From NCBI GenBank assembly GCA_900299395.1, contig OMJO01000018.1, positions 1 to 38,840 on the forward strand: 38,840 nt of DNA, in the 5' to 3' direction. A program made the translations under genes and the position numbers. Below, one piece after another: positions 1,010 to 24,001 of the stretch. Numbering within the stretch: position 1 is the first letter of the stretch; every line of letters begins with the position of its first letter. The stretch is from a bacterium (GTDB taxonomy: Bacteria; Patescibacteriota; Saccharimonadia; Saccharimonadales; OMJO01). The notes beneath the pieces are model-generated. The model was given only the letters and a program-made list of their open reading frames with translations. It had not been told where the DNA came from and did not search any database.

Positions 1010-1255
1010 TATGTTAGTTGACCGTTATGTTGTGTTTCATACGGACGTGAAATTAACAATGATTACCCACTAATTATACTAACTTTTCCACATTATTGGA
1101 AGTTGTTTCCACAGATTAACAGATGGGGTTTTGTGCTGTGTAAAAACCTGCCTCTGGTTTGCTGATTTTCTACGAACTGCCAACAAATAACAAAATTAAG
1201 GTTGTGGAAAACTCCCTTTTTTAGGTATATTAACCTACACGAAGGAGTAAGGGGT
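1010..1255. other. Putative oriC segment upstream of dnaA with DnaA-box-like motifs
   Basis: TTTTCCACA 1084-1092, GTTTCCACA 1105-1113, TGTGGAAAA (reverse box) 1203-1211; between rpmH and dnaA. Confidence 0.6.
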
Positions 1256-2629: not shown

Positions 2630-2875
2630 AACGAGTGGAAAAGTTCAGGAAAACATCCTGTTTGGTCTGTGTGTAAGTATTCGGTTTATCCGCAGCTATT
2701 TTACTAAACTCAAAACACTGCCGGTTTTTGCCCAGTTTGTACACAAAAGTTGTTCGTTTTTACACCGCCTTTTTACACACAAAATTTCAGATAATTTATC
2801 TGTTAGTTGCTTATTTTCCACACAATTAACACACCCTATTACTATAAAAACTATCTATATATAAAAGGAGTATTT
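2630..2875. other. dnaA-dnaN intergenic region with further DnaA-box-like motifs (possible second oriC half)
   Basis: TTTTCCACA at 2814-2822 plus degenerate TTTGTACACA and TTTTTACACA; AT-rich; no convincing gene. Confidence 0.45.
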
Positions 2876-3967: not shown

Positions 3968-3984
3968 GCGTCTACAATAGAGGT

Positions 3985-5058
3985 ATGATAACAAGCCTAA
4001 GGCTACAAAATTTTCGAACCTATATTGATGATACCTTCGAGTTTAATCCCGGGGTTACTATTATCGTTGGACCCAATGCAAGTGGAAAAACAAACCTACT
4101 AGAAGCGGTCTATGTCATGGCAAGAGGAACATCCTTTCGTGTTAAAGATGTAGACCTGATACATCACAATGCTCCTTGGTGTCGCCTTGACGCCGAGGTT
4201 GATTCCGGCGCAAGGGCTATTAAACTAAAGCGATCTGAAAATGGACTAGCCGACAAGCAGGTAATAATTAATACAGAAAAATTTTCTCGTTTTCCGTCAA
4301 GCAAGACATATCCTGTCGTCCTATTTGAACCAAACCATCTGCAGTTGTTCCACCTCGGGCCCGAAGCAAGAAGAGACTATGTTGATGATTTGGCCGAACA
4401 GTTGTTCTCTGGTTACGCACAGACAAGGTCTCACTATAAGCGAGTTTTGGCTCAGCGCAACAAACTTCTCAAACTAAACCCGAAAGATATCCATCAACAG
4501 ATGTTCGTGTGGAATATCAGATTAAGTGAATTGGGTGGTCGTATTGCCGGTATACGAAATGAAACCATAGAGGAGATCAATAAAAACCTTACCGAATTAT
4601 ACGGGCAGCTATCCCATGCAAAGAAAAGTGTGACAGGAAGATATATATCAACAATCCCCATCGATCAGTATAGTAGCCAGTTGCTTCATCGGCTTGAGTC
4701 TGATGTGCCGCGCGAGATTCAACGGGGGTACACTTTGTATGGTCCTCATAGAGATGATTTTATTGTGGAGTTAGGGGATCATGACGCCCAAGAAACTGCT
4801 TCACGGGGTGAAATCAGAACCATACTACTTGCCCTCAAAATATTAGAACTAGGCTTGATAGAAAAAAAGACCGGCAAAACACCATTATTACTACTGGATG
4901 ATGTGTTTAGTGAGCTTGATGGCGTTCGGCGGCAGGCGCTTACGGAAGTGATAGCGAAACACCAGACTTTCATCACAACAACCGATGCCGACATTGTCGT
5001 CCAGCACTTCCTTGATCGGTGCTCGATTATTCCGCTTGGCAGTAAAATCTCAGCGTAG
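3985..5058 (+). CDS. recF: DNA replication/repair protein RecF
   Basis: MITSLRLQNFRTYIDDTFEFNPGVTIIVGPNASGKTNLLEAVY, ...RGEIRTILLALKILE...LLLDDVFSELD. Confidence 0.93.
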   Translation: MITSLRLQNFRTYIDDTFEFNPGVTIIVGPNASGKTNLLEAVYVMARGTSFRVKDVDLIHHNAPWCRLDAEVDSGARAIKLKRSENGLADKQVIINTEKFSRFPSSKTYPVVLFEPNHLQLFHLGPEARRDYVDDLAEQLFSGYAQTRSHYKRVLAQRNKLLKLNPKDIHQQMFVWNIRLSELGGRIAGIRNETIEEINKNLTELYGQLSHAKKSVTGRYISTIPIDQYSSQLLHRLESDVPREIQRGYTLYGPHRDDFIVELGDHDAQETASRGEIRTILLALKILELGLIEKKTGKTPLLLLDDVFSELDGVRRQALTEVIAKHQTFITTTDADIVVQHFLDRCSIIPLGSKISA

Positions 5059-6582
5059 AAAATTGGTGATGGTGTAGCCTTGGGGAGGCAAACTCAGTTT
5101 AGTAAGTTCTTGCTGAATGTCATTATTCACTTGCCGTTTTGTGGCAGGGTCGTAGTCTAGTTCGCCCGTAGCATTGGGTACCAATGCACCATAGTTTGGC
5201 GATAGGTAGATGTAGCTCCGATATACAGAAACATCATTAAGCGCTTGCGATTCGGCGAGGGCTGTAATCTTTTTATCAAGCTCATTACTTGTGTCTGCGG
5301 TGGCAGGATTGATAGCGAGCGCTATTTTTTTGCCATTCTCATTCGTGAGCGTCAACACATAACCATCAGCAGTTTTTTCTGCATCATTGAGTGAGTATGA
5401 GCCGTATCGATACTCTGCAAACCCTTCACCGTTTTTTAGATCTATCCTCAAACTATCCCCTTTTCTCACTGCTACCACTTCCTGGCCCAATGACAAAACA
5501 CTGACGACGTTATTAATATGCAGTGTTTTTTTAAGCTCGCCTGAGTCAATAGCAAACACAGACAAGCCGGTGCTATCAACGGCGCAGATATACTCACTAC
5601 AGAAACTCACTTTTTGGTAATCGTTCTTTGAGCTAAAGTGCACAGTCTCTGGAGAACTAACAATAATCTCACTTCCAGGCTTGGTGTTATTGGTAGGCTG
5701 CTTGCCATAGAGAAACACTGTTTTGTTATCTTTGGCATCCGAAGTGAGCAGGATTAAGCCCTTGCTCTTTGGAGCTGGTTGAGTCATCTTACTTGCTTTA
5801 CCTGATAGGTTTGCCAATTGGAAGCTATCTCCTTCCCCTTGTGGCATAAACACGAGACTACCTTCTGAATACAAAAGACCGTATGTCATGTTTTCGTTAA
5901 GCTCACCTACGGGTATTCGCCGTGTAACTTTCAGATTGTCCCTAAGCACATACAGTATGTGGCTTACCTGTGCATCTTTGGCTTCCTCGCCCTCATCACC
6001 AACACTTAATTGAACAAGAGCGACAGTTCCTTCCTTAGTCTGGGCCATTCCTTCAATAAGCCCCCGTTCATTATTGCTTGCCACCATTTGTGTGTAGGTA
6101 GCTTGGGTGGCTGTAGCGGGTACGTGCTGGTTAATGGCGCCGAAATCTCCCCCGCAGTTGTATGAATATAACTTTCCCGAAATAAGTTGGAAACACGAGG
6201 CTGGGTTATTACCTACGAACGTTCTTTCTCTCTCTTTCTGCATTGGTAGAACAACAGATGTTGTGCCAAAAAAACCACCCGATCTAACGATCTTAAAACC
6301 GTTCATCTCGTCTTGTCTTGCCATGATCTCAAAGTTGCCACGCTTCACGAGCCGTTTGATAGAAGCGCCACCACTGACAGTTTGTGTCTTGTTAGACTTT
6401 TGATCAGTCAATACGTATTCGTACATGCCATCCTTGCCACCACTTGCTTCAATGGTAATGAATGACATTTGACTAACCCAATACAGGGCTCCCAATACGG
6501 CCACAAGGATTAGGCCGATGATCAATCGTCGTAAAAGGCGATTCGGCTGATTGAGCGTAGTATACGTGTTGTTATCTAGCAT
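5050..6582 (-). CDS. Single-pass membrane-anchored protein with large extracytoplasmic region; last gene of the T4SS-like operon
   Basis: 510 aa; N-terminal TM LLRRLIIGLILVAVLGALYWVSQ; 7 bp overlap with the upstream gene; converges with recF (9 bp overlap). Confidence 0.65.
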   Translation of the reverse strand: MLDNNTYTTLNQPNRLLRRLIIGLILVAVLGALYWVSQMSFITIEASGGKDGMYEYVLTDQKSNKTQTVSGGASIKRLVKRGNFEIMARQDEMNGFKIVRSGGFFGTTSVVLPMQKERERTFVGNNPASCFQLISGKLYSYNCGGDFGAINQHVPATATQATYTQMVASNNERGLIEGMAQTKEGTVALVQLSVGDEGEEAKDAQVSHILYVLRDNLKVTRRIPVGELNENMTYGLLYSEGSLVFMPQGEGDSFQLANLSGKASKMTQPAPKSKGLILLTSDAKDNKTVFLYGKQPTNNTKPGSEIIVSSPETVHFSSKNDYQKVSFCSEYICAVDSTGLSVFAIDSGELKKTLHINNVVSVLSLGQEVVAVRKGDSLRIDLKNGEGFAEYRYGSYSLNDAEKTADGYVLTLTNENGKKIALAINPATADTSNELDKKITALAESQALNDVSVYRSYIYLSPNYGALVPNATGELDYDPATKRQVNNDIQQELTKLSLPPQGYTITNFLR

Positions 6583-7877
6583 GATGCGGCACCTCCTCCT
6601 GAACCGCCCCCAGAACCTAAGCGAAGCAAAATATCACGAGCAAAATTCATGCGGTTTTGTATTTTTTCTGGTCCATCAGCTGAAATCTCGTAGTATTTGT
6701 GCCATATGAACGCCGCTTGGCCTGCGTCACTTTCCTGCTGGACTTTTGCCCAGTCGCCGCGGCCGGTTGCTTCTTTGTAGAGCCATTCCAACTGTGTGCC
6801 CATATCCCCATCTTTTGTGCTACGGCTGACGGCAAAATCGTGAAGTCCTTGTTGTCGACCTTTCGATGTCCACTGTGCCAACCCATACCCAGTGCTTCCG
6901 TCTATTCTCATGGTATCGTCGAGGCTAGAGGGTTTGCCCGCGACAGACGTTTCACCTCGTGAATTCGTGCCACCATACTGAACACGGCGTGGCTCAAAAC
7001 CCGACTCCGCCTGCAGGTTACCCATGATACCTGCTGCTTGCGGCGGTGTTAGTCCTTTTGATATCAAAAAGTTCCAAACCTTTTCAGCGTTATCCTTGCC
7101 CGCCAGAAGTGTGCAGCCACAACCGCCACCGCCACCCTTGCCACTAACTGCGTCAATGATGGCCGATGAAAGTTGTGGATAGGCGCCATGCACAAAGTCG
7201 CTGCTGCCAGGAATCGGCAAACCAGGCTGAATATTTAACGGGTCCTTATCGGCCCCAAAGATTGCCTTATAGCGGCTAATAACGGTATAGCCTTGTGACT
7301 GGGCGTTGTCGTAAATTACTTTATTGCGCGCACTCCAGGTAGCTGCGGTGTTCGCTCTCGTAGCACCGATGTCCACCCAGTAATACTTTGCATTTGGTGC
7401 GATAGCCTTGAGTTTCGTCATGAGGCTAACAAGATTTTGATTGAATGGATCATCAGTTGGGTTGGTGCCAAGCACTATAACTATAGTTCCGGCTCCACTA
7501 ATGACTGTTCTGTCACCATCTACAGCATTGAGGGCGCTTGTGCGCACTTCTGTGCCAGGCTGCGTAATTGAACGTCCGCTGTCGTGGTTCACAAAACTGG
7601 TACCCCCCACAGCAGTCTGCAGCTTACCCTCGATTCCATCACCACTGAGCCCTGTGCTAATGGAGTCACCGATTACATATGAGTTAGCACCGCCCTTTTG
7701 CCCCGTGCCAACATCACAGGTTGAACCGCTATGATCATTTGTCTTGTAGTGGACACTGTTGCGGTAAATGGATTCCAGATCAAGATCTGACAGTGCAGAT
7801 ACGAGTGGCGCGCTCACGCAAAGCAGTACAAAGTAGGAAACAGAAACAAGCCTCAGTAATTTTCCTATGTTTCTCAT
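6576..7877 (-). CDS. Secreted SGNH-hydrolase-like domain fused to phage-tail-lysozyme-like domain
   Basis: Signal-peptide-like N-terminus; SGNH blocks GDSISTG / VLGTNPT / DFVHG; then NAEKVWNFLISKGLTPPQAAGIMGNLQAESGFEP...STGYGLAQWTSKGR typical of phage-tail lysozymes; ATG at 7877 forms ATGA overlap with the upstream stop. Confidence 0.75.
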   Translation of the reverse strand: MRNIGKLLRLVSVSYFVLLCVSAPLVSALSDLDLESIYRNSVHYKTNDHSGSTCDVGTGQKGGANSYVIGDSISTGLSGDGIEGKLQTAVGGTSFVNHDSGRSITQPGTEVRTSALNAVDGDRTVISGAGTIVIVLGTNPTDDPFNQNLVSLMTKLKAIAPNAKYYWVDIGATRANTAATWSARNKVIYDNAQSQGYTVISRYKAIFGADKDPLNIQPGLPIPGSSDFVHGAYPQLSSAIIDAVSGKGGGGGCGCTLLAGKDNAEKVWNFLISKGLTPPQAAGIMGNLQAESGFEPRRVQYGGTNSRGETSVAGKPSSLDDTMRIDGSTGYGLAQWTSKGRQQGLHDFAVSRSTKDGDMGTQLEWLYKEATGRGDWAKVQQESDAGQAAFIWHKYYEISADGPEKIQNRMNFARDILLRLGSGGGSGGGAASC

Positions 7878-10800
7878 TGTCCTGTCCCACATCTGCTTGG
7901 TGTATCAAGTGGATCCCAGTGCCAGGATTCGTTTGAATACTGTTTAATGTGATAGGTCTCGGCGTTGTTGTACAGCCATGTCCAAACAGGGCTTGAGGGG
8001 TCACGGGCACGGCCGGAGCAACTGGTTGAACTGGTCCCTTTGAGGTGTGTTCCACTGAAGTCGATAGCTAATCCCATCTGGTGTGGGGAGTACCCAGGTC
8101 GCGCAACAAAACTACCATCACAAGTGCCACCACAAAGGTCGGTCTGGTGGGCATTAGTCCTAAAGGAGCTTTCGGCGTGTAAGCCAACGCCTGCTGCGTT
8201 TGCAGCTTGCACAAGTGCAAACCAGGCCCCAGACACGCGCGAGTTTACCAGTGCCTGACCATTAGCCCCCTCGACGTACCATTTGCCCCCGGGCTGACTT
8301 TCTTCACTTGAACTTTTGAGGTTAGGAAGTGCACACAAGCGAATCATAACCTTAACCCCGTCATGATAGCCTTCCTGAGGCTGGGCGATAGGCGTGGTAC
8401 CATACGCGCACGGTACATTGGTAGAATCCGCAAACATGTCTCCTACAATATCTGTGCCTGTGTTTCCGGTGCTCGGTCCACTGCCGCCCGTTGGGGTTCC
8501 CAGTTCTTCGGCAGGAAGTAGGCTATCGTCAAAAATAGCTCCTGCACTACCCACTGCGGCATCTAATAATAGACATGGGTTTTCGCTGTTGTGTACATCC
8601 ATTCCTGTATCTGGATCAATGCTCACATCGTTTGCCCAGTCTTTATTTTTCTGGGCACAATAGCTTTCCGTCAACGTCGATGGGTCGGTATTGACTGCAG
8701 CACCATTGGGGTCGTAGCCGTATTGCGGAATACCAAACGGGTCATCCTGGCTAGCGGCGGCGACTCGGTTTGTGCCAAACATACTAAACATTTTTGAAAA
8801 CGGGTTAATAAGGCCAGCGAATGAATGTTGTATGGCGGCAGTCTGACTTATAGGCATGGCCATGGCAAGCTGCGACACCATCGAATACGAGCTGTTTGTA
8901 TCAAACATACGAGCAAAAAATGGTTGTGACTGGAATTTCATTTTACGCTGGGCTTCCTGTTCGGACTGAATCTGCATAACGGTTGCGGTGGATAGTCGTT
9001 TACCCCCTAGTCCATATTGGGCGTAGCTTGACCCCGCGGCATCTGCTCCACCGGCCAACATATTAAAGCTACGAGCACCACTCATGTTGTCGGATATAGG
9101 TGATGGGATAAAGTAGGTGGCGACGGCCGTAAAGACTTCCTGGGCTTTTGCTCCCATCCATTCCTTCAATGGATCGAGAATGAATCCAAATGGTTTGAGT
9201 AGGAGGTCAATCGCACTGCCAGCTAGACCCTGGGCTTTGTCCCATACCCAGCCAGCTGAGTTATTCCATTGGTCGGCAAGGAATTTTAGTGGTGCCAGAG
9301 GGCCATTATTGAACAGATTAGATAATTCGGTGAGGAAGTTACTGACCAATAAACTTTCCTCGGGACAGATTAACTTTCCGACAGGGATAAGGCTACCATT
9401 GTCACAGGTGTAGTGCCCCGCTTCACTCGCTGGCGCAGCGGCAAACGCACTGGGCAAGAGTGAATCAAATGCTGTTTTCTGTGATGAACTGCCCATGAGA
9501 TTACTGTAGAGGGGGCTGTTCTCGGCCGATTCACCGTTTTTTGTATTATTCCCTAGCATGTTCACAAAAGATCCAGTCAAATCGGCTGTGGTATCGCCTG
9601 CCTTCTGCTCATCAGCGTGAGATCGGGCCAACATATAGTAACTAACCATCGCTGTCGAATTGAGCACAAATGCCCAGCGTTTAATCTTTGGTCCGGCACT
9701 GGCTGTTGTCTCTATAATGTTTGCAATGGTATGTATCCAACCAACGACGGGTACTGTTTTAGAGGCCGCATCGGCAATTTCTTTATTCAGAACAGTTTCA
9801 ATAATGTAGTTCATTAGCCCATTCTCGGATATTTTTATTGAGGCATCCGCTATTTTTTGGACAGTATCCTCGGTATATTGTTGGCCGCGCTTTTCCAGAT
9901 AATCACGGACCTGTTGCTCAAGTTTGTCTCGACGCTCATTGTCGTTACCGTCTGCCGAAGAGGGGGCATCATTACAGCCGCTCGACACAATACAAGAAAA
10001 AGCAAAGCCTAACATATCACTATGTGGCTCCACGACTCGACGAATAACCTGTAGCTTCGCTGCCTCTTGTTTTTTGTCTGCCCAGTCCGCTATTTTGTCT
10101 CTTCCATCGCACGCAAACATACAGCGTTTGATGCCATACTTTCGTTCGAGCAAATGGCCCACCTTGAAGCGGTACATTACCCGTCTAAACTTTGTCTCTC
10201 CATCCAATGCCTCAGTAATCTTGGCGCGTATGGTTGCCCGAGATGCCTGCGGCATATCATTGATATCAAAAATTGGTATTTGGCCAGGGGCCGACTTTAG
10301 TACGGCTTCACCAACCCCCGGAGCTTTTAGATAATAGTTTGTGCCTCGCTTTTCAAACTCAATGCCGTATTTGGTGGCGAGCTTATTCTCTAATTTGTCC
10401 TCACGCCACGCGCGGAACAATTTCTCCACCTTCCCTTCACCGACAATGTTGTCGACACAGTCTTTATTGATACGGGTGCTTGTACAACCAGGTTTGTTCA
10501 TGGCAGTCAGGACGTGTTCACTGACATACTTTTGTAAAAGCTTCTGTGTGTATTTCTCGACTGCTGATTCGGAGGTGGAAAAGAATTTGTTTTGCAGGTT
10601 CTCAACAATATGCACCAGTTTTAACGGTATTAGCGACATCATAATCGTGACGATAATACTAACAACACCGGCTGTAATGCCCCCACCTAAGAGTACTCGC
10701 CTGCGGTTTAGGCCATTAAGGGTGGACTCGAAACGTCGAATACCAGTTGCTTCTTCTTGTTTGAAGCCTGGCCCAATTTGGTCTAGGGCGTTATCTAGTT

Positions 10801-11002
10801 GGCTGGCTTCGGTGGAGTCACCCTTTGAGTTTGGGCTTTCAGCACCTTCCTGTTCTGCCGACTGCAGGGCATCAGAATCCATTGCCGGCGCACTATAATC
10901 ACGCTCAAGATCAGCTATTTCCTTTGCGCGATCATCATCGGACATATCCAAGTCGTCATAGGAGCCTGGTTTTTTGACTTTTTCTTCGTCATAGACAGCC
11001 AC
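7874..11002 (-). CDS. Large membrane protein with C-terminal VanY-type D-alanyl-D-alanine carboxypeptidase domain, T4SS-associated
   Basis: 1042 aa; TM RVLLGGGITAGVVSIIVTIMMSLIPL; C-terminal SPHQMGLAIDFSGTH and ESWHWDP match the LAS/VanY SxHxxGxAxD...HW zinc-site pattern. Confidence 0.75.
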   Translation of the reverse strand: MAVYDEEKVKKPGSYDDLDMSDDDRAKEIADLERDYSAPAMDSDALQSAEQEGAESPNSKGDSTEASQLDNALDQIGPGFKQEEATGIRRFESTLNGLNRRRVLLGGGITAGVVSIIVTIMMSLIPLKLVHIVENLQNKFFSTSESAVEKYTQKLLQKYVSEHVLTAMNKPGCTSTRINKDCVDNIVGEGKVEKLFRAWREDKLENKLATKYGIEFEKRGTNYYLKAPGVGEAVLKSAPGQIPIFDINDMPQASRATIRAKITEALDGETKFRRVMYRFKVGHLLERKYGIKRCMFACDGRDKIADWADKKQEAAKLQVIRRVVEPHSDMLGFAFSCIVSSGCNDAPSSADGNDNERRDKLEQQVRDYLEKRGQQYTEDTVQKIADASIKISENGLMNYIIETVLNKEIADAASKTVPVVGWIHTIANIIETTASAGPKIKRWAFVLNSTAMVSYYMLARSHADEQKAGDTTADLTGSFVNMLGNNTKNGESAENSPLYSNLMGSSSQKTAFDSLLPSAFAAAPASEAGHYTCDNGSLIPVGKLICPEESLLVSNFLTELSNLFNNGPLAPLKFLADQWNNSAGWVWDKAQGLAGSAIDLLLKPFGFILDPLKEWMGAKAQEVFTAVATYFIPSPISDNMSGARSFNMLAGGADAAGSSYAQYGLGGKRLSTATVMQIQSEQEAQRKMKFQSQPFFARMFDTNSSYSMVSQLAMAMPISQTAAIQHSFAGLINPFSKMFSMFGTNRVAAASQDDPFGIPQYGYDPNGAAVNTDPSTLTESYCAQKNKDWANDVSIDPDTGMDVHNSENPCLLLDAAVGSAGAIFDDSLLPAEELGTPTGGSGPSTGNTGTDIVGDMFADSTNVPCAYGTTPIAQPQEGYHDGVKVMIRLCALPNLKSSSEESQPGGKWYVEGANGQALVNSRVSGAWFALVQAANAAGVGLHAESSFRTNAHQTDLCGGTCDGSFVARPGYSPHQMGLAIDFSGTHLKGTSSTSCSGRARDPSSPVWTWLYNNAETYHIKQYSNESWHWDPLDTPSRCGTGQ

Positions 11003-11014
11003 GTTCAGCTATCC

Positions 11015-12934
11015 TCATCTCCCCGGGGTGAGCCGGTTAGTTAGGTCTATGGTGCCCTGCGGCTGCGCCACGCCACCTTGCTGGATTTGCTGAACTTGCT
11101 GTGGGTTGGTAGTGATAAGCTGCATTTCGCTCGGGCTGGCAGTAACTTGAATGTGTACATGGTTTTGCCCGGCAAAGAACAAGCCTTGGCCGACCGGGAA
11201 CTGGCTCAAACGCTTCTTTTCCTCACTGGTAAGTTTGAAAACATCTGCCAGCACATCAACGGCAGAAGAAGATTGCTTAAGGAGAATTTGCATGCTGGCG
11301 TTAGCCACGATCGCCCGGCCCATACGGCTACCCATAAAGTCCTCGACATCCTGAGTGATGGTAGTAATGCCAAGGTTGTATTTACGGGCGCGTTTAGCCA
11401 GGCTGAAGAGGAAGTTGGCAGAGTCTTCATACTTCATGAGCTGCCAGGCTTCGTCCACCACCAGAATACGCTTCTTTTGGTCGCTCTTTGTCTTGTTCCA
11501 GATGAAGTTCAGTACGATGTACATGGCTACCGGGCGAAGTTCGTCCTCGAGGTCGCGTACGTTAAAGACCACCAACGGATTGTTGATGTCGATGTTACTT
11601 TGCTGCGAGAAGATGCCGGCGAATGTCCCAGAGGTATATTTGCGGAGTCTTTGAGCTAGTTGCGGACCGGTGCCACCCATATGCAGCAGTGTGTCGTACA
11701 GGTCGTTGATTGTCGGCGGTGGTGATTTATGGGTGAGGGGGTCATTCGTGATACCCGCCTTGGCGTAGGTTTCGATAAGTGCAGCGTCAAGATCTGCCTC
11801 TTCGACTGGCGTGAGCGCCGGAGCAATGATGCCCGCTTGTCCACCACTCGCAGCCATCTGGGCTTGTGCGCCACCCATCATCAAACGAAGTAGCCCGTGG
11901 AGCGTAATGAGGTTACTGCGCAATGCGTTGTCCGCTTCTTCGGTGTCTACAACCTGTGGTAGATCAAACGGGTTGATGCGCGTGTTGGAGTTTAGGCTTA
12001 GGCGTACATACGCACCACCAACGGCATCTGCCATGCGTTGGTACTCATTCTCGGGGTCGATAATGAATATCTCGGTACCAAACATGAGGCTACGAAGGGC
12101 CTCGAGTTTAACCGTGAATGATTTACCGGCACCAGACTTAGCAAACACCACCGAGTTGCCGTTTTCTAGACTAAACCGGTCAAAAATAACGAGCCCAGAG
12201 TTATGCATGTTGATGCCGTACAAGATGCCATTGTCCTGGCTGAGGTCTGCCGAGGTAAATGGGAAGCTCGTGCTAAGGGCACCGGTGTTCATGTTGCGTC
12301 GGATTTGCAGCTGGTCGCTAAATTGTGGAACGGTGCTGTTGAGTCCTTGTTCTTGCTGAGAGGTAGCCGGCTTAGAGTAGACCAACTGTTGACCTAGCAT
12401 AGACTCAACTTTGTGTGCAATAAACTCAAGCTCATCCGTGGAAGAGGCGTAGATAGTAAAGTACAAACCAAAACGGAAAAATCGTTCCTCTCCGACTTGT
12501 AGCTTGTCGCGCATTTCTTCAGCGTCAATGATCGCTGCCTGCTTACCTGGGTCACGCACTCGGCCTTTTTCTGCGTCTATTTGAATGCCAGCTTCGAGTT
12601 GACCCACCTTTTTGCGCAGGTTTTCTAAAACAACCTGGCTCTCCACAGGGTAGATAAACATAGATAAGTCCATCACTTCATCGATGTTAACCATGCTACT
12701 CAGCCAGCCGGTAAATACCTGCCGCGGATAGCCGTAGACGTAGTATGTCCGTGCGTAACGTGTGCCAATCTGGAAATGAGTGCCAGAAAACTCAATTGAA
12801 CTCGGCGAGATAAAGTCACGGAGTGCGGTGATACCCTTTTGGAAGGCGAGATTTACTTCTTGCTGCTCGCGTATTTGCTGCTGTTGGGCAAGTGCTACTG
12901 GATCAAGTTGTTCTTTCTTCTTGCGGCCTATCAT
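11015..12934 (-). CDS. virB4: VirB4/TraC-like type IV secretion ATPase
   Basis: Walker A FAKSGAGKSFTVKLEALRS, IIDPENEYQRMADAVGG, Walker B RILVVDEAWQLMKYEDSANFLFSLAKRARKYNLGITTITQDVEDF. Confidence 0.88.
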   Translation of the reverse strand: MIGRKKKEQLDPVALAQQQQIREQQEVNLAFQKGITALRDFISPSSIEFSGTHFQIGTRYARTYYVYGYPRQVFTGWLSSMVNIDEVMDLSMFIYPVESQVVLENLRKKVGQLEAGIQIDAEKGRVRDPGKQAAIIDAEEMRDKLQVGEERFFRFGLYFTIYASSTDELEFIAHKVESMLGQQLVYSKPATSQQEQGLNSTVPQFSDQLQIRRNMNTGALSTSFPFTSADLSQDNGILYGINMHNSGLVIFDRFSLENGNSVVFAKSGAGKSFTVKLEALRSLMFGTEIFIIDPENEYQRMADAVGGAYVRLSLNSNTRINPFDLPQVVDTEEADNALRSNLITLHGLLRLMMGGAQAQMAASGGQAGIIAPALTPVEEADLDAALIETYAKAGITNDPLTHKSPPPTINDLYDTLLHMGGTGPQLAQRLRKYTSGTFAGIFSQQSNIDINNPLVVFNVRDLEDELRPVAMYIVLNFIWNKTKSDQKKRILVVDEAWQLMKYEDSANFLFSLAKRARKYNLGITTITQDVEDFMGSRMGRAIVANASMQILLKQSSSAVDVLADVFKLTSEEKKRLSQFPVGQGLFFAGQNHVHIQVTASPSEMQLITTNPQQVQQIQQGGVAQPQGTIDLTNRLTPGR

Positions 12935-13878
12935 CGTAGTTCCTTGTCGAGATTAGGCTGCGGAGCGGCGCCTTGACCCTTGGTGATAACAGGAGCGGTC
13001 AAATCGTCGAAGTTCTTGAGTTGCTGGCGGGTCGCTGTATCGGGATTGTAGGTGTCGTAGTAGAGCTCAATAAGTTCTTGCGTATCGAGCGGTAAACCCT
13101 GAATATCGCATTGTAGCAAACCAGCAAGCACAGCTTGTACGCGGTTTCGAAGCTCGTCTTTGGCTTTCACAAGGTCACCTTCATTGATGGTGACGTGCTG
13201 TTCCTTGCTCTGAAATAGATCCATGAGCCCCGTAAAAAAGCTCTTACTTGATACAAGTGCCTGCTTGGTCTCGGAAAGCGGGGAATATGGTATAACCAGG
13301 TAGAATCTTTTATCCATGATGTTTGTTTGGAGTGACAGATTGTCGATGTAACCAATGTAGTCTTCCATAAGTAATGCAAGCAACATGTTGTCGTGCTCGG
13401 AGCGAATCTTGTCGAGCTTTTCTATGTATGGGCGCAAGTCAACCTTTTGAGATCGTATGAATATCTGGATATCAAAATACAAGGAGTTCAGGAAGCCTTG
13501 ATATGCTGCTTCAACTGCTTCTCGCTCCTGAGGACTCATTAGGTCGAAGTTGATGGATTTGACCATGACGACCGATCGGAAGGACCCGTCGTTCATGATG
13601 ACAATTCCATCGCGAATCTCGGCAATTTGTAGCGTGTTTTGGGTGCTGTTCGGGTTGCTTCGTGCTCCTTTGACTGGCACGGCGCTGGCAGGTGAAACAG
13701 CAGCTTGCATACCTGGCTGTTGGGGAAATGGTGCCGGGGGCGCCGGCATTTGGGTAGCGGCTACTGCTGGCTGAGCGCCGTATGAGCCATATGGATTAGG
13801 GGCTGTGGGCTGCAGCGGAACAGCCGCAGGATTATTCTGCGGAATGTTTGGTAATTGGTTGTTCGCGTTTGGATTCAT
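12931..13878 (-). CDS. TraC/VirB4 N-terminal-domain-like protein (no ATPase motif)
   Basis: IVIMNDGSFRSVVMVKSINFDLMSPQEREAVEAAYQGFLNSLYFDIQIFIRSQ resembles VirB4/TraC N-domains; ATGA overlap with virB4; Pro/Gln-rich N-terminus. Confidence 0.6.
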   Translation of the reverse strand: MNPNANNQLPNIPQNNPAAVPLQPTAPNPYGSYGAQPAVAATQMPAPPAPFPQQPGMQAAVSPASAVPVKGARSNPNSTQNTLQIAEIRDGIVIMNDGSFRSVVMVKSINFDLMSPQEREAVEAAYQGFLNSLYFDIQIFIRSQKVDLRPYIEKLDKIRSEHDNMLLALLMEDYIGYIDNLSLQTNIMDKRFYLVIPYSPLSETKQALVSSKSFFTGLMDLFQSKEQHVTINEGDLVKAKDELRNRVQAVLAGLLQCDIQGLPLDTQELIELYYDTYNPDTATRQQLKNFDDLTAPVITKGQGAAPQPNLDKELR

Positions 13879-13916
13879 GCAGTAACTAACCCACCCTCTA
13901 GGTGATGACCATCAGA

Positions 13917-15029
13917 CTAATGTAGCTTTACGACTACTTCATCTTGTGGTGGCTCCGTGTCTCGCATTTTGTCTGCTTGGCGAGCGATTGTGGCCACGTT
14001 CAGGTCGTCATTATTTGCAAGGTTAAGTATAGCAGGATCAGGGGTTGGTGTCGAAGGTGATTGTGCTTTTGGTGGTACGTTTTTTGATGGCTTATGGTGG
14101 TGTTTCGACCGAAGGGATGAGGATACTGGCTCAACAACTCGTAAGTGATAGTTGGTGGGGTCTGGGTCATCCTCCTGTTCGTGGATCTTTTTTAGGAATG
14201 CTTGTTCGTCGGCAGCAGTGATTGGGGCGGCTGGAACAGTTGGCTGGGTGTACTCGGTGGCTCCGGGAGCGATCACTGAGGGGCTGGCAAATGCCGCTGT
14301 GCCAGGTGCGGTTGGCTGTGGAGCAGAGTTCATAAACCAATAATTGGCTGGGGTTTGTGCGGCTTGGCCAGTTGCAGCTTGCTGCATACGGGAAAAAGCT
14401 TCTTTGCGATGTGCCTGTGTCGAGGCGGCAATCATTTCATTGAAATGCTGCGCAGTCGGGCTGCTCTTTTCATCCAATACGTCATCCATGGGTGTAACGT
14501 CATAGTTAGGCACATCCTGAGGTATGGTGGTTGGGTCAATCAGTCGGTCTGAATCTGCTTGGTCAAGCACGTAAGAGGGCTGACTAAAGAGGTTGACGCT
14601 TACATTCTTGATTGCCCAGCCGCGACTATCGATAGTGTTAGCCAGGGCCTGCAGACGACTTTTTACCTCGGTCTGGCTTAATCCGTTAGTGAGCTGTTTT
14701 TCGATACGTTTTGGTGCAGTTATAGTCACAAGATCTTTCATGCCACTTTGATCCCAGATGCGTCGGCGGGGCTTCAAAAAGAACCGAACCTTCGCCAGCA
14801 GCCATATTTCCGTTGGCTGGTCTTTGCCCCATGGAAACGCGAGAAAGCCACTAAATAGTATGATTGGCGAAAACACAGCAGCAATGACCCAAGTGCCTTT
14901 AGTCAGGCCCAAAATGCTTATGTAAAGCCCCACTGCTGTAACCGCACCGTAGATAAACTGTTTAAGGGTCAAAGGGCCCAGGAATTTATCCTCGGCTTCG
15001 ATGTCCTGGAGTACCTTATATGTTGCCAT
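13917..15029 (-). CDS. PrgI family T4SS inner-membrane protein with long C-terminal tail
   Basis: MATYKVLQDIEAEDKFLGPLTLKQFIYGAVTAVGLYISILGLTKGTWVIAAVFSPIILFSGFLAFPWGKDQPTEIWLLAKVRFFLKPRRRIWDQSG. Confidence 0.75.
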   Translation of the reverse strand: MATYKVLQDIEAEDKFLGPLTLKQFIYGAVTAVGLYISILGLTKGTWVIAAVFSPIILFSGFLAFPWGKDQPTEIWLLAKVRFFLKPRRRIWDQSGMKDLVTITAPKRIEKQLTNGLSQTEVKSRLQALANTIDSRGWAIKNVSVNLFSQPSYVLDQADSDRLIDPTTIPQDVPNYDVTPMDDVLDEKSSPTAQHFNEMIAASTQAHRKEAFSRMQQAATGQAAQTPANYWFMNSAPQPTAPGTAAFASPSVIAPGATEYTQPTVPAAPITAADEQAFLKKIHEQEDDPDPTNYHLRVVEPVSSSLRSKHHHKPSKNVPPKAQSPSTPTPDPAILNLANNDDLNVATIARQADKMRDTEPPQDEVVVKLH

Positions 15030-15037
15030 AAACAGCC

Positions 15038-18000
15038 TTACCTATCCCGTCTGTTAAGGCTTTGTTCTGGGACGCCAGTGCCAGGCTCACTACCAGGGGC
15101 TTTGTACTCTCCGGCGAACATATCAGCGACTTGTACAAAAGCATTGGCCTCTTCCATAACACGTCCTGGTGCACCAGCGCCAATTGCTCTGCCGCCTCCA
15201 CCCGTTCGTGTAGTGCCACCAGTCGCCCCTGCCGCACCACGGATTGGTACCTCAACCTCAGTGCCGTAGTCATCGGTTACTACAGGAGCAGGAATGGGTG
15301 CGCCACCTTCCCCGGCCGGTATTACCGAGCCACCACCAAATGAGGCGGATTTTGTAGCATGCGCGATTCGGCTTGCACGCTGCAGTATCTCCGCAGCCCT
15401 GTCTCGAGATTCATCGAGTGCTTGCTTTCTGGCGGCCCTCCAAGCATCTTCTCCGGCTTTATCCGCCGCAAACTCACCTCGTTGAGGTAATGCGACCCCT
15501 GTAATGTCACCATCAACAATCTGCTTCGCTTTACGGACCTCTTCAGACATGCTGGTCCATGTATCAGCATTTTGCATGAGCATCTGGTAGTTGCCCTGCT
15601 TCTCGTCTATTTCTCGCATGAGGGTTAGGCCGTCTAGCTCCATACCCTTACCGGCGCCCTTCCAGCCGTAGTGTTTCCATTGGCGGTTTGCGTTTTGCTT
15701 CTGGAAACCGGCACCTTTCCATACGCCTTGCGCTTGCTTGTCATTCATGGCGAAGCCGCCTGATCCTTCACCTAGGCCACCGTCAACAAGCCGGCCGTAG
15801 TTGCTAACCAGGTAATCTTGTTCTTCTTGGGTGGCGGCTTTGTCCATTTCGTGACCAAGTGACCACTGCAGGGCCATCTGGTTGCCACCCCACCTAGAAT
15901 GTGCCGCGTCGACGGACGCCTCCTTTACCCAAGCACCACCTAGTGTACGGAATTCACGAGCCCCGGTTTCCTTATCTATCCTCCAGTGTTTACCCTCACC
16001 GTCAGCTTGGGCGAGTGCCCATGCTTTGTTGACGGTCAGTGCCCGTTGTTCGGTATCATCACCATTATTGTTCTGTAGATCTTGTAACTTATTCTCAGCT
16101 TCGCGTTGGGCAGCAATGGCTTCTTCGAGGTTATAGCCACCCACGCGGGCACGTGCAAACCGCGCAGCTGCTCCCCGGATCCCACGCTGAGATGCTGCGG
16201 TTTCAAGTCCACGGTACTGACGATCACGAGCAGACAGAGTGCGGGCTCTCCAGTCTTTCTTTGCGTACTCTTTGCGTTTTTCAAACATGCCGTTGAGCTT
16301 ACCGGCGCCACCAGTTATTGCGGCGTGGATACTACCAATAGCGCCTCCGGCGAACTTGAAGGCAAACGGAATCATGAGTAGGGGCAAGAACTGCAATACA
16401 AAGGCGACCACGGCTGCTAGAACATTATTGATCTGCCCATCAACGCCTGCGACACCGTTAGCCTTCAGGATAGTAACCGACATGATGTCGGCAATTGCGA
16501 AGATAATAATGACAATTGGGTAAACCAGTAGTGTTTTAAAGAGGAGTTCCCACCACTTTTTAAAGTACCGCTCGGTATTTGGTAAACAGTAAAGCGCAAA
16601 GGCAAACGGACTAATGATGATCAGGAACAATATGAGACCGCGCCGAATAACAAGGGTCACAAACACTCCAATAATGCTGAGAATAACAGGAAGAAGAGTG
16701 AGTAAACCAACAAACAGCCCTGCCTGAATGGCTGCACCACCACCAAGGACAAGAGCGCCAAGCACCCCTGCAATACCGGATGCGCCAAGCATGAGTCCTA
16801 ATACCCCCAGCCCAATACCCCCAAGTGACTGGCCAATACTCAGATGGAAGCCCGTGCCTATACTACTCCTAATCGGCGAGATCATCAGCTGTCCGATACC
16901 CTTGCCAACGATGTTAGTGACGTCCACCATAAAGGCAACAATGTATACGGATAGGTTGATCAAGATGGCTGCCGTCAGGATGCGCGGCAGTACCTTTTTG
17001 GCAGTGTAGGCATCAATGAGTCCACCGCCGATTGTCTGTCCGAAAACAATGACGATCATCGCTATTACCAACAGCACGTTACCGTAGATGCGGAAGCCCG
17101 ACCATATTTGATAGGTAGGGTCGCTACTATCGGTACTCACGGGGGATGACTGCAGGAACGGGGTAATAAACTCGTTAAACAGCCAGTCCGAGAGGTCGGC
17201 AATGCCATTAAAGACTGGGCAGAGGATCCACGATAATGGGTTGTTCCAGTTTTTTTCACACGTTACGTTTTGGTCGCCACTGCCAGTGTTGCCAACGCCG
17301 GGAGTGCCGCCACCCGCACCTGGTGTTTTGGTGGCGTTTGCAACAGAACCCAGAGGGTAAGACTTGGCGGCCACTTTGCTGTTACTGCTGTCGTAATCAA
17401 CATTTTGCTCTTGCGAGGGCCGCGTACCCCAGAGCTCGCAGCTATTTGGGAAAACAGGCTGCAATATGTCATGGTCGGGGTTGGTTATGTCACTTAGCCC
17501 ATCTCGCCCATTTTGCTTGTTGTCCTCCATACGATAAATTTTGTGCGACGTAAAGTCAGTGCTGGCAATAATGTAATCACCGCAACCACCTCCTGATGTC
17601 CTCACAAAGAGCTGTTTGCTTTGGCTTGCAACACGCGTTTGAGCAAAAATCCAGCCACTATCACCATCTACGCGCCGGATAGTTTGGCTATCGAGCCACT
17701 CATACCATATGTCGACATTACCTTTAGCTATGTGGGTTGATTGAGCTAATACGAGTGGGTCAATCTGAGTGTTTCTACATTGTCCAACCCCACCGGGCTT
17801 GTAGTCGATGTCAACGGAGTATGGGGTTATCTTGCCGTTTACGAAGTCGGCACCAATGTTGTAGGAAGCATAGAAACTAACATGACCATAACAATCACTG
17901 CCTTGAACTGCATAATCGGGCTCCTTGTCGCCGATGTTTTGATCAAAAAACGTGTATTTTGTGCCACCTATTGTCACTTCTAAATGAGCGTGGTCAATAA

Positions 18001-18142
18001 AATTGTAAGAGGCTTTCTTAATATCGTCCTCAGATGATGGGGCAGCAGCGGCTACTTTCTGGGGGTGGAATAAACTAAAAGTCAGGGTGCTCAAAAACAC
18101 CAAGACGCCAACCACCAGAATCAATCGTTTGCGAGCATTCAT
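15038..18142 (-). CDS. VirB6/TrbL-like polytopic membrane protein with signal peptide and long hydrophilic C-terminus
   Basis: Signal-peptide-like N-terminus; many hydrophobic segments between roughly aa 350 and 630 (e.g. IYGNVLLVIAMIVIVFGQTIGGG, LVIRRGLILFLIIISPFAFALYCLPNTERYFKKWWELL); first gene of the minus-strand T4SS-like operon. Confidence 0.7.
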   Translation of the reverse strand: MNARKRLILVVGVLVFLSTLTFSLFHPQKVAAAAPSSEDDIKKASYNFIDHAHLEVTIGGTKYTFFDQNIGDKEPDYAVQGSDCYGHVSFYASYNIGADFVNGKITPYSVDIDYKPGGVGQCRNTQIDPLVLAQSTHIAKGNVDIWYEWLDSQTIRRVDGDSGWIFAQTRVASQSKQLFVRTSGGGCGDYIIASTDFTSHKIYRMEDNKQNGRDGLSDITNPDHDILQPVFPNSCELWGTRPSQEQNVDYDSSNSKVAAKSYPLGSVANATKTPGAGGGTPGVGNTGSGDQNVTCEKNWNNPLSWILCPVFNGIADLSDWLFNEFITPFLQSSPVSTDSSDPTYQIWSGFRIYGNVLLVIAMIVIVFGQTIGGGLIDAYTAKKVLPRILTAAILINLSVYIVAFMVDVTNIVGKGIGQLMISPIRSSIGTGFHLSIGQSLGGIGLGVLGLMLGASGIAGVLGALVLGGGAAIQAGLFVGLLTLLPVILSIIGVFVTLVIRRGLILFLIIISPFAFALYCLPNTERYFKKWWELLFKTLLVYPIVIIIFAIADIMSVTILKANGVAGVDGQINNVLAAVVAFVLQFLPLLMIPFAFKFAGGAIGSIHAAITGGAGKLNGMFEKRKEYAKKDWRARTLSARDRQYRGLETAASQRGIRGAAARFARARVGGYNLEEAIAAQREAENKLQDLQNNNGDDTEQRALTVNKAWALAQADGEGKHWRIDKETGAREFRTLGGAWVKEASVDAAHSRWGGNQMALQWSLGHEMDKAATQEEQDYLVSNYGRLVDGGLGEGSGGFAMNDKQAQGVWKGAGFQKQNANRQWKHYGWKGAGKGMELDGLTLMREIDEKQGNYQMLMQNADTWTSMSEEVRKAKQIVDGDITGVALPQRGEFAADKAGEDAWRAARKQALDESRDRAAEILQRASRIAHATKSASFGGGSVIPAGEGGAPIPAPVVTDDYGTEVEVPIRGAAGATGGTTRTGGGGRAIGAGAPGRVMEEANAFVQVADMFAGEYKAPGSEPGTGVPEQSLNRRDR

Positions 18143-18275
18143 TCTTCCCTTAAATGTAGCATAAAATACGCCTTTCTACACCATACAACTTACGCTTATG
18201 TTGTGCACAGGGAACATATCTGTTCAATTCGGGTGAATTTGTGTATGATGAAAGTAACGTATTGGATCATACATT

Positions 18276-19052
18276 ATGGTAAAAACATCAAAACTTACGC
18301 AAAAGATACTCATCGCCCTCTCATTTTTGCTGGGACTATTTATTGTAGGCATGCCCCTCTCTGCTGCTGCTATACCCGGTCGCGATGATTACAGTAAGAA
18401 CTTTTTATATAAGCCGGATCCAAAATGTCTGACTGGGTCAAAAGGAGCAGACTTTAATGTGGTGCACGGCCGCAATGATATGACGGTGTACGCTTGTATT
18501 CGTGTCCGTGGTGATAACGTCGGCTATTCTATAAGCCCTTTGCCCCCACCCAACCAAGTAATGCAAAACAATGCGTGCGGCGAGACGTTCATGAGTGGCT
18601 CAAGTGTTGAGGAGTACACCGTGAATGGTGGTGGATTTGGACTGCTTTGTGTCATTGTGACAGATTCCACCAAGTGGGACATGACCGACTACAAAACACA
18701 GAACGAGAATCGCACAGGTAGTTATGTAACTGGTGATGCTCAAGGAAGTGGCGATACATGTGGCGAGGGTGATAGTGCTGTTCACACCTCCATCAACATC
18801 GGGTGTCGTGGGCAAGGAAATGGCATCTTGGATCTTACCTTCGCGCTGATTCGATTCCTCTCCATCGGAGTTGGCATCGTGGTGATAGGGTCAATTGTGG
18901 TGGCGGGCATTCAGTACACAGCGTCGCGGGGAGACCCCAGCGCTACTGCCAAGGCTTTGGCGCGGATTAACTCGACGGTGATCGCTCTCATCATTTACAT
19001 CTTTAGCTATGCTATATTGAACTGGCTTATTCCAGCGGGGATATTCAAATGA
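18276..19052 (+). CDS. TrbC/VirB2-like two-TM protein with N-terminal Cys-containing ectodomain
   Basis: Signal peptide, ~150 aa ectodomain with six Cys, then FALIRFLSIGVGIVVIGSIVVAGIQYTASRGDPSATAKALARINSTVIALIIYIFSYAILNWL. Confidence 0.65.
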   Translation: MVKTSKLTQKILIALSFLLGLFIVGMPLSAAAIPGRDDYSKNFLYKPDPKCLTGSKGADFNVVHGRNDMTVYACIRVRGDNVGYSISPLPPPNQVMQNNACGETFMSGSSVEEYTVNGGGFGLLCVIVTDSTKWDMTDYKTQNENRTGSYVTGDAQGSGDTCGEGDSAVHTSINIGCRGQGNGILDLTFALIRFLSIGVGIVVIGSIVVAGIQYTASRGDPSATAKALARINSTVIALIIYIFSYAILNWLIPAGIFK

Positions 19053-19438
19053 TGGATTTCTTATATCGATTTGCGGCAAGTTGTGGGGGTGGCAATCTTC
19101 TTGGCTTCCCTTCTTGGTACAAGTATCTTCCTGGCACTACCGAAATGGCCAAGGACGGTTCAGGTGTAGATATAGGTACGGTCTGCACACCAAAGATCCA
19201 GTCAATTAATGACGTATGGCTCATTGTGGCTGCTGTTGTTGAGATTTTGCTTCGTGTTGCTGCACTCGCCGCTATCGCGCTGATTGTATGGGGTGGCATC
19301 CAATTTGTGATGAGCCAAGGAGAACCCGATAAAGCTGCCAAAGCCAGGTCAACTGTTATCAATGCGATCGTTGGTCTTGTGATTGCCGTAACGGCAACAG
19401 TATTAGTTTCGTTTGTAGCAGGACAATTTAAGCCATGA
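19049..19438 (+). CDS. TrbC/VirB2-like pilin-type protein
   Basis: LRVAALAAIALIVWGGIQFVMSQGEPDKAAKARSTVINAIVGLVIAVTATVLVSF; ATGA overlap with the preceding gene. Confidence 0.65.
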   Translation: MMDFLYRFAASCGGGNLLGFPSWYKYLPGTTEMAKDGSGVDIGTVCTPKIQSINDVWLIVAAVVEILLRVAALAAIALIVWGGIQFVMSQGEPDKAAKARSTVINAIVGLVIAVTATVLVSFVAGQFKP

Positions 19439-19761
19439 GTTTATTCTTGATCACCCATACGCTCGCTGCTGTCGTCCAGAATTGTGACCCAAATCAAGCA
19501 GATGACGGTTCTTGTCAAACAATTTTCCCGGCCATTAAGGGCACGCCAGATAACGTGAAGATTGCCTTGCAGATTGTTTTTGGGGTGATCGCAGTCGTGA
19601 CTGTCATATATATCGTTCTGGCGGCCATTCGTTATCAGATGAGCCTTGGTGATCCTGGCGCCACCGCCAAACTGCGGAACGCCATCATTTATGCAGCTAT
19701 TGGCTTGGTGATTGCACTGAGTGCGGAGATTATTGTTAGTTTTGCGCTAGGGAGGGTTTAA
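19435..19761 (+). CDS. TrbC/VirB2-like pilin-type protein
   Basis: IVFGVIAVVTVIYIVLAAIRYQMSLGDPGATAKLRNAIIYAAIGLVIALSAEIIVSF; ATGA overlap. Confidence 0.65.
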   Translation: MSLFLITHTLAAVVQNCDPNQADDGSCQTIFPAIKGTPDNVKIALQIVFGVIAVVTVIYIVLAAIRYQMSLGDPGATAKLRNAIIYAAIGLVIALSAEIIVSFALGRV

Positions 19762-19762
19762 G

Positions 19763-20161
19763 ATGCTCAAACGACTTATTGTTGTCATGTTGTTGGTCGC
19801 GACCTTGCTTCCGCTTAGCGTGCCCTCTCGGGTACGAGCCGTCGATGTTATTGATCCGGTTTGCACCAACCCAAACGCCGTCGAAAAACCAAAGATATGT
19901 AATGATAATCAGCCAAATGCTCCAGAGAATCCGATCGTTGGCCCCAATGGCATCCTAACCAAAGTTGTTAATATTCTGTCGCTTATCGCAGGTATACTCG
20001 CTGTTTTTACCATTATCATTGGGGGTGTCAAAATGATTGTCAGTAACGGCGATAGTAATAGTGTTGCTTCTGCCAAACGTACGGTGTTATATGCCGTCAT
20101 TAGTCTGGCTATTGTGGCGTTTGCCCAAGTTGGCGTTTATTTCATATTGAACAAATTATAA
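19763..20161 (+). CDS. TrbC/VirB2-like pilin-type protein
   Basis: Signal peptide; ILSLIAGILAVFTIIIGGVKMIVSNGDSNSVASAKRTVLYAVISLAIVAFAQVGVYFI. Confidence 0.7.
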   Translation: MLKRLIVVMLLVATLLPLSVPSRVRAVDVIDPVCTNPNAVEKPKICNDNQPNAPENPIVGPNGILTKVVNILSLIAGILAVFTIIIGGVKMIVSNGDSNSVASAKRTVLYAVISLAIVAFAQVGVYFILNKL

Positions 20162-20175
20162 GAAAAGGAGAGCAT

Positions 20176-20607
20176 ATGCGCATACGTCTATGGATTACCG
20201 CAGTTACCGTGCTTGTTTTGTCGCTGTTAATAGCAGCACCAGCACGTACATCTGCGCTGTTTGAAAATGCCAAGGACGAGGCCTGTAATGGTATTAACTT
20301 GGACACTGGTACTGCTGGATGTTCGGATACAAAAGGCAGTGTTAATGGTATTCTCGCTACGGTAATAAATATCTTTTCACTCGTAGTGGGGATAATAGCT
20401 GTAATTATGATCATTATCGGTGGTCTAAAGTATGTGACGTCCCAAGGAGACAGTAGTGCCATATCGGGTGCCAAGAATACCGTGATTTATGCAGTGGTCG
20501 GTCTTGTGATTGTGGCGTTTGCCCAATTCATAGTTCGTTTTACGCTTAACAAGACAAAACCATTGCCCCAATGTTCTGCTGGCCAAACACAGAACTGCAC
20601 GCCCTAG
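20176..20607 (+). CDS. TrbC/VirB2-like pilin-type protein
   Basis: Signal peptide; VINIFSLVVGIIAVIMIIIGGLKYVTSQGDSSAISGAKNTVIYAVVGLVIVAFAQFIVRF; AAAAGGAG RBS. Confidence 0.72.
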   Translation: MRIRLWITAVTVLVLSLLIAAPARTSALFENAKDEACNGINLDTGTAGCSDTKGSVNGILATVINIFSLVVGIIAVIMIIIGGLKYVTSQGDSSAISGAKNTVIYAVVGLVIVAFAQFIVRFTLNKTKPLPQCSAGQTQNCTP

Positions 20608-20620
20608 ATAAAACAGGTTA

Positions 20621-20650
20621 TTGAAATTCGTGAAACCTTTATGGTATAAG
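20621..20650 (+). promoter_or_regulatory. Putative sigma70-type promoter for the last pilin-like gene
   Basis: TTGAAA 20621-20626, 18 nt spacer, TATAAG 20645-20650. Confidence 0.5.
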
Positions 20651-20681
20651 TAAGTCAGCATATAGATAAGAAAGGATAATC

Positions 20682-21098
20682 ATGATCCAAACACTAAAAA
20701 AATTCATCGCTAAGCTTTCGATTGCGACATTGCTCGTTGTGCCTGTTTTTGCACCAGCAATTGCGCACGCAGCAGATGTAAACGGTAGCCTTTGTGAAGG
20801 GGCAAACCTTCAAGTAGACGCCAAAGACTGTAACCAGAATGGCGACCCAAAGCAGAAAGTAAACGACCTGCTGACAACAGTCATCAACATCTTCTCACTT
20901 ATCGTGGGTATTATTGCAGTTGTTATGATCATCATCGGTGGTCTGAAGTACATTACTTCTGGCGGTGAATCGTCTAACATCACCGGTGCCAAGAACACCA
21001 TTCTCTACGCCGTTATTGGCCTAGTGGTGGTTGCGCTGGCGCAGTTTATCGTTCGTTTCGTACTCGTGAAAGTTACTCAAAGCGGCAACGGCAATTAG
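20682..21098 (+). CDS. TrbC/VirB2-like pilin-type protein (candidate major subunit)
   Basis: Signal peptide ending AIAHA-A; VINIFSLIVGIIAVVMIIIGGLKYITSGGESSNITGAKNTILYAVIGLVVVALAQFIVRF; own promoter and terminator. Confidence 0.72.
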   Translation: MIQTLKKFIAKLSIATLLVVPVFAPAIAHAADVNGSLCEGANLQVDAKDCNQNGDPKQKVNDLLTTVINIFSLIVGIIAVVMIIIGGLKYITSGGESSNITGAKNTILYAVIGLVVVALAQFIVRFVLVKVTQSGNGN

Positions 21099-21771: not shown

Positions 21772-22187
21772 ATGATTTTAGAGAAACTAATTGGCACCAT
21801 TGCACCACACCAGTGTATTCGTTGTGGTAGTGAAGGTAGCGTTGTCTGTGCTTGGTGTCTTTCAGACATACGCGTACCAGTGCCACCACGGTGCTATCGA
21901 TGCAAAACTCTCACGCGAGACTTTCGTGTATTTTCAAAATGCAAACGAAGCAGTGCTCTGCGTCATGTATGGGTTGCGACTGTCTATGACGGATTGGCTA
22001 AAAACGTAATTCGTACGTTTAAGTTTGACCGGGCGCAGAGTACGGCTGGCATCATTGCTGCCCAAATGACCGATATTCTGCCGCAGCTGCATAGTGAAAC
22101 TGTAATTGTACCCGTATCATCTGCCACGAGTCGGATTCGGCAGCGGCAAGATCGGTGAGTGCTGTTGTGTTTGCCCAAAAAACCTAA
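21772..22187 (+). pseudogene. comF: comF family gene with internal deletion/frameshift
   Basis: First 128 codons match ComF (CIRCG...CAWCL, WVATVYDGLAKNVIRTFKFDRA, VIVPVSSATSRIRQR) then TGA; the next frame reads ARSVSAVVFAQKT* (stop 22185-22187), which resembles a ComF C-terminus; the phosphoribosyltransferase core in between is missing. Confidence 0.7.
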
Positions 22188-23953: not shown

Positions 23954-24001
23954 AATCCCCTCTTCCATTGAGATGGAACGAGTCACACAAGGAACCTTCC
24001 C

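Follow-up and report, generated by a model that had tools for sequence, protein, structure and literature searches.

What is the purpose of a T4SS that lies beside the chromosomal origin of an ultrasmall bacterium, carries peptidoglycan enzymes in its own operon, and is accompanied in the window by neither a coupling protein nor a relaxase? Here, the window is the whole 38,840-nucleotide stretch of the Saccharimonadales contig OMJO01000018.1 that was analysed, and the locus occupies its positions 5050-21098. All 13 ORFs that the initial annotation had placed in this region were recovered at the same coordinates in the ORF listing of the window, together with their tight spacing and their divergence from the pilin genes. 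The features are listed below.

1202..5058, plus strand, dnaA-dnaN-recF, the chromosomal anchor, convergent with the operon (ORFs)
5050..6582, minus strand, membrane-anchored beta-sandwich and beta-propeller protein, 510 aa, as predicted by AF2 and Foldseek
6576..7892, minus strand, slot-2 protein, predicted secreted, with an SGNH esterase-like N-terminal half and Phage_lysozyme2 (PF18013, 117.2 bits, cut-off 28.2)
7874..11002, minus strand, slot-1 protein (slot 1 being the gene directly after virB4) with a C-terminal VanY (M15) peptidase domain (PF02557, 43.7 bits, cut-off 25)
11015..12934, minus strand, VirB4 ATPase (NF045971, CD1110-family, 357.7 bits, cut-off 325)
12931..13878, minus strand, TrsD-like protein, the split N-terminal half of VirB4 (NF045975, NF041427, fusion in a relative)
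13917..15029, minus strand, PrgI/VirB3-like membrane protein with a long C-terminal extension (PF12666, 38.5 bits, cut-off 27)
15038..18142, minus strand, VirB6-like polytopic membrane protein, 1034 aa (TM scan, profile comparison)
18276..19052, plus strand, T4SS pilin 1, 258 aa, with a long N-terminal ectodomain (PF18895, 26.6 bits, at the cut-off)
19049..19438, plus strand, T4SS pilin 2 (PF18895, 41.0 bits)
19435..19761, plus strand, T4SS pilin 3 (PF18895, 39.5 bits)
19763..20161, plus strand, T4SS pilin 4 (PF18895, 40.3 bits)
20176..20607, plus strand, T4SS pilin 5 (PF18895, 43.2 bits)
20682..21098, plus strand, T4SS pilin 6 (PF18895, 53.0 bits; TrbC/VirB2, 30.4 bits, cut-off 27.9)

The minus-strand operon (5050-18142) encodes the VirB6-like protein, PrgI/VirB3, TrsD, VirB4, the VanY membrane protein, the SGNH-lysozyme protein, and the anchored beta-propeller protein. 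Its intergenic spacing in coordinate order is -7, -19, +12, -4, +38, and +8 bp, and that of the pilin array is -4, -4, +1, +14, and +74 bp; the two are separated by a divergent gap of 133 bp. The ATGA overlap described at 12931-12934 is exact. A second, at 7874-7877, requires the lysozyme gene to begin at its second Met (7877), the start with the better signal peptide; taken from its longest ORF, the gene would overlap its neighbor by 19 bp instead. A promoter/terminator scan of the divergent gap yielded, for promoters, no signal above chance, and an Rfam scan found only tRNAs. The arrangement is not due to chance, because the same order is found again in dozens of independent contigs from Saccharibacteria.

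VirB4 also matches P-loop_TraG (95.9 bits), has intact Walker A and B motifs (265, 490), and is 65-89% identical in relatives; its best plasmid homologs, from Bacillota and Actinomycetota, are approximately 37% identical. Judged by sequence, it is kin to the VirB4 of monoderm conjugation systems and MPF_FATA-like. The neighboring protein had been labeled TraC-N-like, which we correct to TrsD. It represents the N-terminal half of VirB4, here encoded as a separate protein, because the two match consecutive parts of the NF045975 model (TrsD 99-247, VirB4 285-893) and because a relative's second T4SS has a single 733-aa ORF (L105:8582-10780) that comprises TrsD and VirB4 fused; the TrsD match to NF041427 (27.8 bits) is below the curated cut-off of 200. 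The VirB6-like protein has a signal and an extracytoplasmic N-terminal region, TM segments at approximately 358-603 by hydrophobicity scan, and a long cytoplasmic C-terminal region, and it has no Pfam match of its own. In hhalign, a profile of 23 homologs aligned with the VirB6/TrbL-type protein that this second T4SS encodes (probability 95.8, E 7.7e-9), and the L104 counterpart of that protein matches Pfam TrbL/VirB6 at 20.4 bits, below the cut-off; the VirB6 assignment is thus one of distant similarity. A PDB profile search with this protein returned only spurious matches to influenza HA2, which were disregarded. The six proteins described as TrbC/VirB2-like all match T4SS_pilin (PF18895) at or over its cut-off of 26.6 bits (26.6 to 53). 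The VirB2, VirB3, and VirB4 assignments are therefore borne out by family matches, and that of VirB6 by profile comparison.

The slot-1 protein has one TM helix (109-127), a mostly helical extracytoplasmic body of approximately 800 residues, and intact VanY motifs, SxHxxGxAxD (972) and ExWH (1025); an AF2 model of the body of moderate confidence (pLDDT 69) gave no significant Foldseek match in the PDB. The slot-2 lysozyme retains its catalytic Glu, and its N-terminal half contains the SGNH blocks GDS (75), GTN (142), and DxxH (232-235). This putative SGNH assignment comes from the motifs; same-slot homologs have Pfam GDSL matches. The last protein, previously described simply as membrane-anchored, has no family match in Pfam or NCBIfam. 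Its anchor was upheld and its architecture refined: the AlphaFold2 model (17 homologs; mean pLDDT 85, pTM 0.80) predicts a beta-sandwich and a beta-propeller together with a single TM helix, and Foldseek returned chiefly propellers as its top matches, among them the clathrin terminal domain (NTD) and BamB. The confident propeller model rules out VirB8, VirB9, or VirB10 identity. No operon protein scanned matched VirB7, VirB9, or VirB10 of the outer-membrane core in Pfam or NCBIfam, and the propeller protein is the sole unassigned one, in agreement with the monoderm-type T4SS originally proposed.

Synteny beside recF was surveyed in 80 named Saccharibacteria contigs (loci), and the same order recurs across them: recF, wall cassette, virB4-trsD-prgI-virB6, pilin array, and hsp20. 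The downstream recF was reached in 54 loci, and most of the others end at a contig edge. Among the rearranged loci, L085 and L094 have no wall cassette between virB4 and recF, the cassette has moved upstream in L093, and virB6 has moved behind virB4 in L076, L082, L083, and L095. Conservation in these loci was 85 for VirB4, 69 for DnaA, 68 for TrsD, 62 for DnaN, 49 for RecF, and 43 for PrgI; the VanY protein, the lysin, and the propeller protein showed approximately 25-31% identity where they could be aligned at all. Because the loci had been chosen by VirB4 similarity and are biased for its conservation, the comparison was repeated on 61 genomes of the order sampled by kinship rather than by VirB4. 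VirB4 was present in 53 of these 61, and in all 43 genomes compared its conservation (median 85%) exceeded that of DnaA (median 69%). The initial annotation had placed the locus next to oriC, where dnaA-dnaN-recF adjoins it, and of the 37 genomes in which virB4 and dnaA share a contig, 36 have a spacing of 5.7-11 kb between them; the locus is therefore a fixed chromosomal one and not an integrative conjugative element (ICE). The sole exception is G034, in which virB4 is 189 kb from dnaA (C2:259983, C2:450950).

This system is a known one. Wang et al. (2023, Cell, PMC10633639) reported that the T4SS cluster of Southlakia epibionticum (SEML1_0006-0019) is essential, including its pilins, and that it is without a recognizable coupling protein or relaxase; they suggested that it may not serve DNA transport. 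The S. epibionticum ML1 cluster resembles the window in its position near the chromosome start by locus number, its six VirB2-like pilins, its PrgI, VirB4, TrsD, and VirB6, and its peptidase and lysozyme genes downstream of virB4. The likeness to this other species is drawn from the published description, and the essentiality shown there is one we infer for the window. In a phylum-wide survey, Quinonero-Coronel et al. (2025, PMC12102498) described Patescibacteria T4SSs that are often near dnaA, with TrsD, pilin arrays, oriC proximity, and rare relaxases (103 of 3,035 genomes), and stated that the T4CP homolog of S. epibionticum is not essential, unlike its T4SS. Their Patescibacteria clade shares with the window the VirB4/TrsD/PrgI/VirB6/VirB2 arrays, the mostly absent relaxase, and the place near dnaA. 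A 2025 review (PMC12857230) treats the Patescibacteria T4SS as a recent addition to the T4SS superfamily that may form pili, and the role of the essential T4SS for episymbionts has been called completely unknown (PMC11665869). The MPF_FATA systems (pGO1 TrsC-TrsD-TrsE-TrsG, CTn2 CD419, and CD1110-family ICEs) have the same PrgI/TrsC-TrsD-VirB4 order, a lytic enzyme near virB4, and no outer-membrane core, but unlike the window they are mobile, lack a pilin array, and carry VirD4 and a relaxase. The window locus is thus the Patescibacteria T4SS, rediscovered correctly, and the literature already contained both the system and the suggestion of a role other than conjugation (PMC10633639, PMC12102498). 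The overall interpretation was partly supported: the type of T4SS and its locus stood, and the coupling protein and TraC-N statements were corrected.

The wall-enzyme cassette is a different matter. In the published survey, VirB1-type enzymes were not highly associated with VirB4 outside Paceibacteria (PMC12102498), whereas in Saccharimonadales a two-gene cassette is nearly universal beside virB4 and is spread over many enzyme families, a spread that a search for VirB1, TrsG, and CD419 would overlook. Slot 1 (46 proteins) carries various C-termini on a common body: VanY in 12, M23 in four, M14 in two, Amidase_2 in two, and GDSL in one. M15-like motifs occur in 22, and several proteins stop after the body. 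In slot 2, Phage_lysozyme2 is found in 31 of 57 proteins, in varying mixes with GDSL esterase, C39-like, M23, SLT, glucosaminidase, CHAP, NlpC/P60, GH3, Amidase_3, VanY, beta-lactamase-like, and PlyCA/ELLD domains. When 30 slot-2 proteins were scanned singly, one or more wall-active or esterase/peptidase domains turned up in 29, and with the window there are approximately 25 architectures in 31 genomes. On a quick tree of these 31 genomes (VirB4, TrsD, DnaA, DnaN, and RecF), slot-2 architecture changes 28 times, a count inflated by Pfam misses scored as absences and based on mechanically called ORFs; for C39, M23, and SLT, the number of changes equals the number of occurrences. We found no account of rapid module turnover next to a near-invariant motor in the literature searched, and the combination, in one operon, of a VirB4 conserved above DnaA with turnover of the wall enzymes is apparently new.

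It is established T4SS biology that VirB4 drives assembly of the VirB2 pilus through VirB3 and VirB6. We propose, with a probability of roughly two in three, that the locus is a vertically inherited, oriC-linked Saccharibacteria T4SS that serves as a host-contact apparatus, with a wall-breaching cassette refitted in each lineage, most likely to the wall of the host. The two-part ATPase (TrsD and VirB4) would dock via PrgI/VirB3 onto the VirB6 channel and power the building of a VirB2-type pilus out of the products of the six-pilin array. After export, the slot-1 and slot-2 proteins would cleave peptidoglycan at the point of contact between the apparatus and a wall, and the propeller protein may be an anchored extracellular scaffold. 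The whole would serve contact with, and breaching of, a bacterial host envelope rather than plasmid conjugation; its cargo and the direction of transport are matters on which we infer rather than observe.

A near-invariant motor and fast-changing wall enzymes in one operon suggest that the partner that varies is the host envelope, the cassette probably being refitted by domain exchange in each lineage to match the host wall. Lytic enzymes generally show fast domain turnover, and the turnover of the cassette could also reflect phage lysins or changes in the bacterium's own wall. An unlikely but serious alternative is a VirB1-type role in assembly: the enzymes would make an opening for the T4SS in the epibiont's own peptidoglycan, the host wall being irrelevant. 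Gram-positive conjugative T4SSs do carry such enzymes (TrsG, CD419; PMC12102498), and some relatives have a compact second T4SS in which a single M23 enzyme takes this position, flanked by virB4 and virD4. For that task a single dedicated enzyme would do, whereas here each of two genes encodes as many as three wall-active domains, and their combination has been re-assembled in nearly every species despite the frozen motor. These observations speak against that alternative, and action on host rather than own peptidoglycan is the predicted role. We advance more tentatively, and hold as somewhat doubtful, the further idea that the cassette is species-specific and modular, a swappable peptidase on an anchored body plus a multi-domain lysin, and evolves to the host peptidoglycan while the motor is held near-constant; a parallel would be phages, whose tail tips and lysins are exchanged while the tail machine stays the same. 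The cassette is a candidate for host specificity and for the means by which ultrasmall bacteria reach through a Gram-positive wall. If it does track the host wall, hosts could be predicted from genomes. Module turnover beside the frozen motor is the part worth following up.

The compact second T4SS occurs in a minority of genomes, at 5627-13318 of L104 (G016 C37) and 5721-12683 of L105 (G019 C5), and comprises a pilin, VirB6, PrgI, TrsD, VirB4, an M23 peptidase, and an adjacent VirD4. It shares pilin, VirB6, PrgI, TrsD, VirB4, and a wall peptidase with the window, with a VirB4 34-39% identical to that of the window, but differs in its patchy presence, its single pilin (plus one fused to VirB6), its restriction to M23, and its adjacent VirD4. 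The VirB6 of L104 has a pilin-like N-terminus, and the L105 system lies next to a Shedu gene and to genes resembling those of type I restriction.

The claim that there is no coupling protein holds for the window and fails genome-wide, as the same genome encodes two VirD4-like ATPases, both unlinked from the T4SS. One, at C28:14974-17409 (L002, L102), is an 870-aa soluble protein beside gltX that matches TrwB_AAD_bind, T4SS-DNA_transf, and TraG-D_C over cut-off; the other, at G000 C12:52443-54629 (L103), is a 955-aa protein beside gyrB with an N-terminal TM segment and Pfam matches just below cut-off. It is possible that such an unlinked ATPase acts in trans with the window T4SS, and possible in turn that the T4SS transports substrates, including DNA. 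On this basis, a DNA-handling T4SS, for conjugation or for uptake of host DNA as a source of nucleotides, would use one of the two unlinked ATPases as its coupling protein. The family is present in 60 of 61 relatives, the second compact T4SS has a related VirD4 directly beside virB4, and T4SSs have been suggested to take up DNA (PMC11665869). We nevertheless consider this improbable, given the fixed chromosomal position, the rarity of relaxases in Patescibacteria and dispensability of the T4CP noted above (PMC12102498), and the MOBP relaxase (PF03432), which was found in none of 61 genomes, the window's own genome being 89% complete; the absence of a relaxase from the window had been claimed from the start.

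That the locus is a degenerate or resident ICE lying near oriC by chance is so improbable that we dismiss it: VirB4, TrsD, and PrgI do have homologs among the conjugation genes of monoderms, but the position relative to dnaA and recF is the same across families, no MOBP relaxase and no disrupted genes were found, and the motor is under stronger constraint than DnaA. Neither the variable position nor the patchy presence of a mobile element was seen, and the module does not include a coupling protein; fixed synteny and the missing MOBP relaxase rule out an ICE or plasmid conjugation module, and the initial annotation had likewise proposed that this is not a conjugation module.

Three other features of the window lie outside the locus. 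The comF gene at 21772-22158 is truncated or degenerate, encoding only 128 aa where relatives mostly have approximately 200-275 aa and continue with RGYDQA, and two tRNA-Ser genes follow it directly. A short GC-rich stretch at 23968-24300 (69% vs approximately 48% GC) encodes a small secreted cysteine-containing peptide of approximately 80 aa. Arginine catabolism matters in Saccharibacteria, and the protein encoded at 37413-38282 is, from a reading of its sequence, a predicted dimethylarginine dimethylaminohydrolase/amidinotransferase look-alike.
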